A stretch of DNA of 64,000 nucleotides, taken from assembly GCA_003599885.1 (NCBI GenBank), contig QZKW01000089.1, positions 62,001 to 126,000 on the forward strand, in the 5' to 3' direction. The notes beneath the pieces are model-generated. The model saw only the letters and a list, made by a program, of their open reading frames with translations. It had not been told where the DNA came from and ran no database searches. The DNA comes from Desulfobacteraceae bacterium (GTDB taxonomy: Bacteria > Desulfobacterota > Desulfobacteria > Desulfobacterales > Desulfosalsimonadaceae). Of this stretch, positions 1,208 through 58,897 are shown one piece after another; positions within the stretch are counted from its first letter, which is position 1, and each line of letters begins with the position of its first letter. The position numbers were made by a program, and so were the translations under genes.

Positions 1208-2648
1208 CAATCCCTTTTAAACAGGTTGTCAGTGCGTGGGCGATTATCGGCAGTTCATCAGTCTGGACGGTGCGCATATCCATTAAAAAAATTCCATCTT
1301 CGATACGCCCGATAATCGGCGGATCGTTTTTGCGCATTTTTTTTTCGATGGCGTCAGCGCTCATCGCTTCAATTTCTATCCCTACAGACCGACTCGGCAG
1401 ATGCATCAGCGGCAGAGCCCCCCCGCCGGCCATTGATACGGTGTCCATCAGGCCGGCATGAAGGCGCGGGTCGCCGGAAGCTTCGATCAGGTTTTTGAGC
1501 GATGCCGCTTTTTCTTCAACGGATTCAATCGGGCAGGTCAGCATGTTGAGCGTCGGGATGGACGCGATGGCGGTCTTTTCATCCCGGTAAAGCCGCAGGG
1601 TGCTTTCCAACGCCGCCAGGGTGAGTTTGTCTATTCTTAAGGCACGGGTCAGGGGGTTTTGTCTGATTTTGGCGATGATATCCGGTTTGCCCAGGATAAT
1701 GCCGGCCTGGGGCCCGCCGAGCAGTTTGTCGCCGCTGAACGTCACGATGTCCGCCCCGGCCCGGACGGAATCCTGGACAGTGGGCTCCCTTAGCGGCCCG
1801 TATTTTGAGAAATCGATAAAGGTGCCGGAGCCTAAATCTTCCATCACCGGGAGATGATGTTCTTTGCCTAAAGCCACCAGATCATTCAACGGAACGCTGG
1901 AAGTGAAGCCGACAATCCCAAAATTGCTGGTGTGTACCTTCATGAGCAGGCCGGTTGCATCTGTGATGGCCCGCTGATAATCATACAAGTGCGTCCGGTT
2001 GGTGGCGCCCACTTCTTTGAGCAGGGCGCCGCTTTTTGCCATGACATCGGGAATCCGGAATGAGCCGCCGATTTCCACCAGTTCGCCCCGGGAAACGATG
2101 ACTTCCCTGCCCCGGGCAACGGTATCGAGACACAGAAGGACGGCGGCCGCATTGTTGTTGACCACCATGGCTGCCTCGGCCCCGCTGATTTCACAGAGGA
2201 GCCCTTCAACTGCCGAATACCGGAGGCCGCGTTTTCCGGAGGCCAGATTGTATTCAAGATTTGAATACCGGTCGGATATGCCGCGGACGTGATCGAGGGC
2301 TTGCCGGGCCAGAAGAGAGCGGCCAAAATTGGTATGCACCACAACACCGGTGGCGTTGATGACCGGGGTGAGGTTGAGGCGCATGGCGGATTTGACTTTG
2401 GTTTTCACTTCACTCAGAAGACGGGGGTCGGACAGGAGGGCTTCGGTGATAGCCTCCGGATTATCCAGAATCGTTTTTCGATGGTCGTCCACTACTTGCC
2501 GGACGGCGGCGGTGAGAACGGTGTTGGGCACATCCGAAAGCGTAGCGTCTGTTCTGGCGATTTCCAGCAAATGATCCACGCCGGGGAGTTTTCGTAACAG
2601 CGACTGCTGGACCGCATCAATGCCTGGTTTTTTCCCCGAATCGGTCAT
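1188..2648 (-). CDS. selA: L-seryl-tRNA(Sec) selenium transferase
   Basis: PLP enzyme converting seryl-tRNA(Sec) to selenocysteinyl-tRNA(Sec) with selenophosphate, so the organism should make selenoproteins. The 486-aa length fits the family (about 460-480). The PLP lysine lies in SGDKLLGGPQAG (Lys about 308), and NATGVVVHTNFGRS near residue 108 is the usual N-terminal block. I chose ATG at 2648; an upstream in-frame TTG at 2681 would add 11 residues without family support. The next gene downstream (GGDEF-like/TPR) overlaps its end. selB and selD are not in the window. See the in-frame UGA at 58170-58172. Confidence 0.95.
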   Translation of the reverse strand: MTDSGKKPGIDAVQQSLLRKLPGVDHLLEIARTDATLSDVPNTVLTAAVRQVVDDHRKTILDNPEAITEALLSDPRLLSEVKTKVKSAMRLNLTPVINATGVVVHTNFGRSLLARQALDHVRGISDRYSNLEYNLASGKRGLRYSAVEGLLCEISGAEAAMVVNNNAAAVLLCLDTVARGREVIVSRGELVEIGGSFRIPDVMAKSGALLKEVGATNRTHLYDYQRAITDATGLLMKVHTSNFGIVGFTSSVPLNDLVALGKEHHLPVMEDLGSGTFIDFSKYGPLREPTVQDSVRAGADIVTFSGDKLLGGPQAGIILGKPDIIAKIRQNPLTRALRIDKLTLAALESTLRLYRDEKTAIASIPTLNMLTCPIESVEEKAASLKNLIEASGDPRLHAGLMDTVSMAGGGALPLMHLPSRSVGIEIEAMSADAIEKKMRKNDPPIIGRIEDGIFLMDMRTVQTDELPIIAHALTTCLKGIDDETTH

Positions 2649-55769: not shown

Positions 55770-58277
55770 TTAATCGGCCACAGTGGAGATAAAACAACCG
55801 CCGCCATCATTGCTGGATTTATTATTGACGGTGATGTCCACCGAATCCGTGTTTTTCAAGCCATTGTAATTCTCAACAGTTAATTTAAATTTTAATACAA
55901 CTGTTTTTTCAGAAATTTTGGGCGCTTCAAACGTTGGCATGATAGCCGAAGGGTTTGAGAGAACCACTCCGATGCCGTCCTGCTGTTCCCAGAGATAACT
56001 CTTGATCCCTTCATCCGCATCAGAAGAACCGGACGCATCTAAAGTCACAATATTCTTTGCCCCTTCATCAACCTCCTGATCAGGGCCGGCATCGGCCACC
56101 GGCAAGACTGAAGACGGATAGACCGTGACGGTGACAGTGTCACGGGACGTCAGTCCTTCATCGTCCTCCACTATCAGCGTGAAAGTCAATATAACGTCCG
56201 ATATCACGGATGGGGCTGTGAATGTGGGCGCCGCAGAAGAATCGTCCGACAGCGTAACGGTTGGCCCACTGTTCTGAATCCATTGATAAGACAAGGTGTC
56301 TCCGTCGGGGTCAGATGATCCGGAGCCGTTCAAAGAGACTTCCGCTTTTTCAGTCACCATCTGATCGTCGCCTGCATCCGCAACCGGAGGGCCATTCACA
56401 TTATTAACCGTGATTTGAACCTCATCTGAGTCTGACTGCCCGCCGTTATCTGTTACCGTAAGTTCAAAAGTCAATGTCGCGAAATCTGTAACAGCCGGTG
56501 CTGAAAACATGGGTTCCGTATCAGATGCATTAGACAATGTCACCGGGGTGCCGCTTAATTGTGCCCAATGGTAAGATACAATTTCACCATCCGGGTCCGA
56601 GCCGGAGCCATAAAGCGTCACGAGGGCCCCTTCTGACACCACCTGAGGGTCGCCGGCATTTGCCGTCGGGGGGGCATTTGTCCAGGCAACCGTAACCGTC
56701 GCCGTGTCGGTTTTTGTGGCATCATCTGTGACAACCAGTTTAAACGTAGCAGAACCGGAGGAGTCTGAAGGCGTTGTAAACGTCGGCTTGGCGGCAAATT
56801 CGTCTGAGAGAACAATCGTATCCGGACCGGATGTAACTGACCATTGGTATGAAATCAGTTCTTTCCCATCAGGGTCATAAGAATCGGAAGCATCCAGGGT
56901 CACTTTGTCTCCCGGCGCAACCGCTTGACTGGGCCCTGCTTCAGCTATCGGAGGCTTGCTTTTAAAAATATAATTCAGGCTATCGACCAGCACCATCACC
57001 TCATCCGTGGCAGTGACGCCATTGGCGTCTTTTACAATAAACTGCAAAACAACGGTTTCCTGATCTCCGGAAATAGCCGGTGCCGTGAATGTCGGGTTGA
57101 GTTGCCGGGTGGCGCCGGGCGCCATCGGGTCGCTTCCGGAAAGGGTTACAGGCGGTCCGCTTTTTTGATTCCATTGATAGGTGGGGGGGGTGCTGTCGGG
57201 GGAATCCCATGAGCCGGACAACTGGACGGTGCTGCCGGTGGCAACCGCCTGGTCAGGTCCGGCATTGGCAACAAGCTCAGTCCCGCCATCGGCATTACTG
57301 ATTGATATCATAACTAAATCTGTAGATTTATCGCCGTCAGCGTTTGTAACGGTCAACTGAAATTCAACCCACCCCCTGGCATTCGGGGTTATAAAGGTCG
57401 TCATTTCGCCGGAAGGGTTTGACAAAACGATTTGCGATGTATCAACTGAAGAATGCGCCCTTGCAATTACCCATCGGTACGTGAGGCGCTGGCCCTCCGA
57501 ATCTTCGGAATCCGACCCGTCAAGGGTGACCGTGTCGCCGGCGCGAACCGATTGATCCGACCCCGCATCCGCTGTCAGAGAGCCGGTATCCGTCCACTGG
57601 ACGATAATATTGACGGAGTCGGTATCTGTGTTGCCATCATCGTCGGTCACCGTTAACTGGAATACCAGCGTATCCCCGCCTTTAACAAACGGGGTGGTGA
57701 ATGTCGGTCTGGAAGTGGTCGCATTTGAGAGGGCGACTTGCTCCCCGTCCATCTGCTCCCACCGGTAACTGACGATCGTTCCGTCCGCATCACTGGACTT
57801 TGTGCCGTCCAAGGTGACCCTGACCCCTTCCTTTACGCTCTGGTTCGGTCCGGCGTCGGCTATGGGCAACACAGGCGCCGTATTCCCTTCAAAATAAGCG
57901 GTCACCTTGGTGGGTAGAAGTTCGGTCGGCATTTTGATCGAATAGGGGTTTGCCGAGCCAGTGTATTTGTTTGCGCCGGTAATCACCCACCGGGAAAATT
58001 TGTACCCGGAATTCGGGGTTGCCTGAAGCACGACCGTTTGATTTACAGAAAAGCACGTTGCCGTTGTTTCCGGCGGGAAATATTTTTCAGTCGGCGGTTT
58101 AAGATTGTCACGCGCATAAACCACGCCACTTCTTGCAGGGCTGACAGACACGGTCAGCTCAGGGCCCGTTCAGGCGGCTTCTGCTGACCGGGGCACAACC
58201 AACGAGAAGGAAGCCAGTGAAACAAGCAGTGCCAGATAAATCCCAAGCCTGGTTTTTTTAAGAAATGTTTTACCCAT
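55770..58277 (-). CDS. Secreted PKD-repeat protein with in-frame UGA (candidate selenoprotein) and GGGCFI tail
   Basis: Read through an in-frame TGA (58172-58170) the gene gives 835 aa from ATG 58277: a signal peptide (GIYLALLVSLASFSLVV, AEA cleavage motif), the UGA at codon 36, an InlB-B-like repeat (about 65-125; VVLQATPNSGYKFSRWVI), seven PKD/REJ-type repeats of about 90 residues, and the tail GGGCFISTVAD. The residues between UGA and the nearest later start (GTG 58151) continue the same frame and look coding, and without the signal peptide the protein could not be exported. So the options are selenocysteine insertion, a nonsense mutation, or a sequencing error. The tail resembles the CFI-box sorting-type end but stops right after it. 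Confidence 0.72.
58139..58172 (-). promoter_or_regulatory. Putative bacterial SECIS-like hairpin after UGA
   Basis: In the message, UGA is followed after 11 bases by GCUGAC, a 7-base loop CGUGUCU, and GUCAGC: a perfect 6-bp stem with G as second loop base, 19 bases after the UGA. This fits the loose bacterial SECIS rules (apical G, 16-37 bases from the UGA). A 6-bp stem can arise by chance. Confidence 0.4.
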
Positions 58278-58897
58278 AATGATGATATTCTCCCTTTTAT
58301 TTTACAAAAAGTTAACCCTTAATATTGCTCTTCTAAATAAACATTTTTTCAGCGGTTCGCCAGTAAAATTATTTATTTTTTATTCCGTAAATCGCCGCTT
58401 TGTATATAGCAGTTAGATACTGCCACAGAGTGGTATATGCTTGTCAATAAAAAACAAAATTTTTACATCTGTTTTTATTCTGGTGGAAATCATGCGACCT
58501 TATAATACATTAAAAATAATGCAATTTTTATACCATAACGTGATTTTTCGCTTCTTATAAATGATTCTCGTTATAATAACAGTGCTATTTATTTACAGTA
58601 AAAAAAAGTCCCCGCAAACCGGTTGTTTTGTGTGAACAATTGTATACTTTGCCGGACAATGGATGTGTACTTTTTTATAACAGTCAAGGGGCGCCTGAAA
58701 AAGCCTGGTCTTGTTCAAATGCAATGAGTGGACCCATAAATTACCCGATACAGATTCAGGGCCGCGTTTTTGATATCATTGACAAAAATTGTGGCATATG
58801 AGCAGATGAATTGTTAAATAGCTGTTATATATGTAATGAAACCATGGCCGAAGCCAGAGGGTATCGACTAAAAACCATTTAACCGGGTTTTCTTGTG
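58278..58897. other. AT-rich intergenic region
   Basis: About 620 bases between divergent genes, clearly more AT-rich than the surroundings. It must hold the promoters of both genes; I find no convincing -35/-10 or GG-N10-GC pair, no tRNA and no open frame of weight. A GGGAG about 12 bases before ATG 58277 is a possible SD for the minus gene. Confidence 0.5.

Follow-up and report, generated by a model that had tools for sequence, protein, structure and literature searches.

Among described systems, the rhodanese-like selenoproteins (forms 1-5, including TsoB NF045694 and rhodanese_LYCAU NF041203; PMC13188914 Table 1) likewise unite a rhodanese fold and selenocysteine (Sec) in one polypeptide. 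In those proteins the Sec motif is part of the rhodanese family, whereas in the proteins considered here the predicted Sec resides on a separate B-repeat domain at the mature N-terminus, the rhodanese catalytic Cys has mostly given way to Asp, and NCBIfam scores fall far under the cut-off; the protein encoded in the window (the whole 64,000-nucleotide stretch of Desulfobacteraceae DNA that was analyzed) has no rhodanese domain detectable with Pfam. Hypothetical protein DG (NF049953, GUxG) and the other deep-Sep families of Desulfobacteria/Desulfobulbia (PMC12013277) were also predicted from sulfate reducers, and the G-U-x-G motif of DG resembles some members of the present family. However, deep-Sep requires Cys homologs and lists DG with no conserved domain, and the present queries match no NCBIfam selenoprotein model. 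MvhD is a known selenoprotein whose gene adjoins two members of the present family, but it is a cytoplasmic electron-transfer subunit of unrelated sequence. Surface proteins built from PKD and InlB B-repeats (PF22352, PF18998) have the same domain makeup, but their known members are not listed as selenoproteins.

The window contains a gene of this last kind in which a UGA, situated directly after the signal peptide, is very probably a Sec codon, so that the gene would encode an exported selenoprotein. Full-length and N-terminal queries gave no match above cut-off to Pfam or NCBIfam 20.0 selenoprotein models, and the 2026 catalog of 119 prokaryotic selenoprotein families (PMC13188914 Table 1) includes no PKD/B-repeat exoprotein with an N-terminal Sec. 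Nor was a description of such a family found in the open-access literature, taken as articles without their supplementary files.

A probable read-through gene for an exported PKD protein

The first-pass annotation had placed an in-frame UGA between a signal peptide and a PKD body, and this arrangement is indeed present on the minus strand, from ATG 58277 to TAA 55772. The parts of the gene, together with the Sec synthase gene of the window, are as follows.

58290..58296, minus strand: putative ribosome-binding site AAGGGAG, 5′ of ATG 58277 (from the sequence)
58173..58277, minus strand: signal peptide MGKTFLKKTRLGIYLALLVSLASFSLVVPRSAEAA, 35 codons (AxA-type site; dN/dS 0.35 against the G007 ortholog)
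58170..58172, minus strand: in-frame UGA, predicted Sec codon, residue 36 (UGA in 33/33 Sec genes, TGT in one paralog)
58140..58158, minus strand: candidate SECIS hairpin GCUGAC-CGUGUCU-GUCAGC (covariation, invariant loop CGUG, family-specific model R1)
57882..58157, minus strand: mature N-terminal domain, a divergent InlB B-repeat, PF18998, matched at residues 79-132 (Pfam; alignments A1 and A3)
58053..58055, minus strand: Cys75 (U+39), candidate partner of Sec36 (Cys positions)
55815..57854, minus strand: seven PKD domains, PF22352 (Pfam)
55770..55805, minus strand: C-terminal tail GGGCFISTVAD and stop TAA (short CFI motif)
1266..2363, minus strand: selA, Sec synthase (PF03841, E = 9.1e-155)

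Read in the 5′ to 3′ direction of the minus strand, the order is ATG 58277, MGKTFLKKTRLGIYLALLVSLASFSLVVPRSAEAA, the UGA at 58172-58170, TGPELTVSVSP... and finally TAA 55772. The read-through product would thus comprise a 35-residue signal peptide ending in ...VVPRSAEAA, U36 and a PKD protein of 799 residues. The AxA-type site would be cut ahead of the last Ala, so the Sec of this protein is expected to be mature residue 2, as had been proposed; comparison with relatives supports this placement and widens it, for the family as a whole, to position 1 or 2. An open frame of 793 amino acids does start at GTG 58151, and no ribosome-binding site resembling AAGGGAG lies upstream of that GTG.

Conservation of the UGA and its hairpin

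When the read-through protein was compared with 40 related genomes, many loci matched across a single N-terminal TGA, and the N-termini extracted from these relatives all consist of a signal peptide, U, a short spacer and LTVxVSP. A profile of this junction (A1), built from the N-termini of 20 relatives, matches in 13 of the 36 genomes of the window's taxonomic family, with one TGA in every full match. In other families of the order it matches in G524 (five copies), G474, G572 (two) and G635, and in the phylum it matches in one genome of a distant family, G396. De-duplication leaves 33 distinct genes from 17 genomes, counting that of the window; three more distant B-repeat proteins that lack the junction (L099, L100, L104) stand outside this count. 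Homology extends to both sides of the UGA within the genus, in other genera of the family, in other families of the order and in the distant family of the phylum. The UGA lies 0-2 residues past an AxA-type signal-peptidase-I site in the 33 genes, and a simple AxA rule makes it mature residue 1 or 2 for 32 genes and residue 3 for the remaining one. The gene first proposed as a single selenoprotein would therefore be one member of a multigene family whose exported products have Sec at their mature N-terminus. A search of the contig collection for related loci returned distant PKD matches only.

At the UGA column itself, where Cys or Sec in orthologs had been set as the test of the Sec reading, the 33 genes have UGA and one paralog has Cys; Trp, Arg and Gly codons are absent from every gene bearing the junction of signal peptide and B-repeat, and, a contig-end fragment in G002 aside, no family member has any residue other than Sec or Cys. 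The Cys form is a tandem paralog in G524 (G524:C9, L093 2261-2458) that has TGT and adjoins a UGA copy. Its junction reads ...GPAAAT-C-YDRLTVKVDPAGSG, and its DNA at the hairpin site, CTGACCGTAAAGGTCGAC, has lost the conserved loop and the right arm. Only this single Cys form was found, unlike the situation in most selenoprotein families, so homology-based predictors would miss members of the family. According to its authors, deep-Sep may fail to identify selenoproteins that have no Cys homologs (PMC12013277), which may explain why the exoprotein family is unlisted.

Near-cognate tRNAs can read through UGA in bacteria, and the codon could in principle be decoded by suppression or a reassigned code as Trp, Arg or Cys rather than Sec. 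Against this stand the absence of TGG, CGA and other sense codons from the 33 genes, the fact that the one substitution, in a paralog, is Cys, the dedicated, covarying hairpin after the UGA and the Sec machinery of the genome; together they make decoding as another amino acid very improbable.

Selection was estimated from the closest pair, the window gene and its G007 ortholog, for which dN/dS is 0.35 in the signal peptide, 0.25 in the first 100 codons past the UGA and 0.25 further on; values from more distant pairs say little, since their synonymous sites are saturated. Purifying selection thus acts on both sides of the UGA in this pair, a pattern that is incompatible with a nonsense mutation or with a free signal peptide. 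The rival put forward in the first-pass annotation was a nonsense UGA that disables export; on this view the lesion is recent and leaves a truncated protein starting at GTG 58151, which is the start that gene callers would choose. Yet the same UGA occurs in 33 genes from many genera, and in the closest pair purifying selection acts on the signal peptide as well as on the body. GTG 58151, for its part, belongs to the loop of the hairpin and is preceded by no ribosome-binding site, and a start there would remove the conserved beginning of the domain. Conservation across genera and selection on either side of the UGA exclude the nonsense mutation, whose probability is close to nil.

The hairpin reported just 3′ of the UGA is present as described: six base pairs, G-CUGAC-[CGUGUCU]-GUCAG-C, at 58158-58140 with a 7-nt loop, and an apical G that is the 19th base past the UGA (+19). 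It begins 12 nt from the UGA, and its loop begins 17 nt from it. The published model of the bacterial SECIS specifies a stem of 4-16 bp, a loop of 3-9 nt, a spacing of 16-37 nt and a G within loop positions 1-2 that is followed by U (PMC13188914). The window hairpin agrees with each of these constraints, having 6 bp, the 7-nt loop CGUGUCU with G second and then U, and a spacing of 17 nt. Its folding energy (-8.0 kcal/mol; MFE of the folded segment, -10.5) also lies within the SECIS criterion of <= -7.5 kcal/mol, yet shuffled sequences do equally well, and the lone hairpin shows no excess of stability over them (z = -0.01). Because the hairpin is no stabler than shuffles, the claim from one sequence is weak and the decision falls to comparison, where it becomes strong, since UGA, hairpin and loop are all kept across 33 distinct genes.

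Beneath the LTVxVSP motif of these genes runs a near-invariant stretch of codons, CTGACCGTGnnYGTCAG. Codon choice under the hairpin is almost fixed (CTG in 32/33 genes, GTG in 33/33 and GTC in 32/32, against background frequencies in the same genes of 0.37, 0.29 and 0.30), and the codon after CTG has C as its third base in 33/33. Directly past the hairpin, the Pro codon is unconstrained (CCC 11, CCG 8, CCT 8, CCA 5). The spacer between UGA and stem ranges from 12 to 21 nt among family genes with the form of the stem-loop constant; standard pairs occupy 99% of the 198 pair cells, and compensatory changes occur at three of the six stem pairs, in six cells. Alternative stems are UUGAC/GUCAA in L046 and CUGGU/AUCAG in L047, with CUGAC/GUCAG elsewhere, and the loop sequence CGUG is identical in all 33 genes. 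None of 500 shuffles does as well, whether in fraction paired, in compensatory counts or in covariation score. When 389 genomes of the order were scanned with a covariance model of the UGA and hairpin (R1), it matched 32 times, in 16 genomes, and every match belongs to this exoprotein family. Comparison thus shows that the UGA is coding and that the hairpin is conserved as RNA.

A conserved hairpin might also act on termination or on the mRNA rather than through SelB, with the UGA as a programmed termination switch that mostly yields a free signal peptide. The UGA stands right where the signal peptide ends, so that termination is cheap, and this speaks for such a switch, but the downstream sequence is under purifying selection at the protein level, and the hairpin fits a SelB-type SECIS and is missing from the Cys paralog. 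We consider a switch of this kind quite improbable. A termination switch that depends on selenium is compatible with the explanation by Sec.

Selenocysteine machinery and gene neighbors

SelA had been reported from the window, and its gene is found there at 1266-2363 on the minus strand (G000:C1:63266-64363). The same genome encodes SelB (G000:C10) and a tRNA-Sec with anticodon TCA (G000:C26). Co-occurrence of the exoprotein family with this machinery is consistent with the assignment of Sec and does not discriminate, because the machinery is present in nearly all genomes of the taxonomic family. At another locus of the genome (G000:C40, L164), two family genes adjoin an HdrA2-like gene, and next comes MvhD, which has the Sec motif CNYU known for it; this known selenoprotein gene provides independent support for decoding of UGA as Sec in the organism. 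In another genus, the contig G012:C22 (L166) contains two tandem exoprotein genes, HdrA2-like, MvhD-U and MetF-like genes, and G000:C40 is arranged alike. A TmcB neighbor in G012 fits a sulfate reducer.

Elsewhere in the genome (G000:C28; L147 6519-6610 and 6648-8555), another, divergent tRNA-Sec gene, also with anticodon TCA, immediately precedes a second selB; the cluster around them encodes rhodanese-like and HesB-like proteins and a TonB receptor. This pair is found in G001, G008, G020 and G047 as well and is not tied to the exoprotein family. As a dedicated decoder for the family it was rejected: in G004 one set of the machinery accompanies the family, and in G020 and G047 the pair occurs where the family is absent.

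Domain architecture and possible role

Behind the U, most complete members have the B-repeat (PF18998), in many cases a rhodanese-like domain and then PKD repeats, and they end in a short GGGCFI tail; the PKD part of some members includes fn3, SdrD_B or MopE motifs. The copies in G524 and G396 have different C-terminal ends. One gene of G396 (L103) and three loci of G524 (L094-L096) have in common a C-terminal region, ..VVGFQLN.S.D..MLDGLP; that these distant genomes share both this region and the family suggests horizontal transfer.

Exported rhodanese domains reside behind the Sec domain in, for example, L054 (2091-3920), L041 (1300-2991) and L052 (273-2081). Their catalytic Cys is replaced in 15 of 16 aligned rhodanese-bearing paralogs, mostly within YDQxG (Asp, or Gly in some), and only L097 retains CRSGNRS. 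The rhodanese-bearing members share, almost without exception, a new pair of Cys residues (SHxLCA, C-TSL).

Nearer to the Sec, a Cys follows it within 100 residues in 32/33 genes, the exception being L103, although Cys is rare further on, at 0.64 per 100 residues. The position of this potential partner is not fixed, and genes that have lost the usual one often have another (U+1 in L053, U+3 in L046). Apart from Cys75, the mature window protein has a thiol only in the Cys of its C-terminal tail. That tail (GGGGCFISxxx-stop) occurs in most complete family members and also in some non-Sec exoproteins of the genome (L155, L158), and it was rejected as a Sec-specific partner for the latter reason. 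It is possibly a surface-attachment signal with a processing enzyme. Like the MYXO-CTERM and GlyGly-CTERM sorting tails (PMC11980579), it places an invariant Cys behind a Gly-rich linker at the C-terminus; in contrast to those tails, only about 5-8 residues follow CFI, and no transmembrane segment or basic cluster is seen.

With Sec at mature position 1-2, the residue could alternatively be a site of lipid or surface attachment, in the manner of the +1 Cys of lipoproteins, and not a redox center. But the residues preceding U contain no lipobox, position -3 is often Lys, Glu or Ala, position -1 can be Asp, Asn or Thr, and the cleavage sites resemble those of signal peptidase I, so that an attachment role appears improbable. 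The domain profile found no reliable match in the PDB, and an AlphaFold2 model of the window protein's N-terminal region from a single sequence reached a pLDDT of 37 and is unusable.

The reading of the UGA as Sec leads to the following proposal. SelB and Sec-tRNASec would decode the UGA at codon 36, with the hairpin 12 nt downstream acting as the SECIS that directs insertion. The signal peptide would then export the chain, and signal peptidase I would leave Sec at mature residue 2 (1 or 2 in the family), carried by the InlB-like B-repeat domain and displayed on a PKD stalk. In the resting state, Sec may form a selenenylsulfide with a nearby Cys, Cys75 in the window protein, and when active it could carry out extracellular chemistry on thiols, sulfane sulfur or metals; a role of this kind at the cell surface is probable. 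Without selenium, translation would end at a bare signal peptide, and export would in consequence be selenium-gated.

Taken as a whole, the chances are about even that this is a surface-displayed family, in bacteria of the sulfate-reducer type, with Sec as mature residue 1 or 2, that serves extracellular sulfur, polysulfide or metal chemistry under selenium gating, and that was overlooked because predictors need Cys homologs and gene callers start past the UGA. Where the UGA is taken as a stop, annotation strips members of their signal peptide, and the near-invariant SECIS offers a short search pattern for more of them. The family appears to add an unlisted, multi-copy group to the bacterial selenoproteome, with Sec at an unusual site, the extreme N-terminus of secreted repeat proteins instead of the active site of a redox enzyme. 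The question of why anaerobes would place selenium outside the cell thereby becomes testable.
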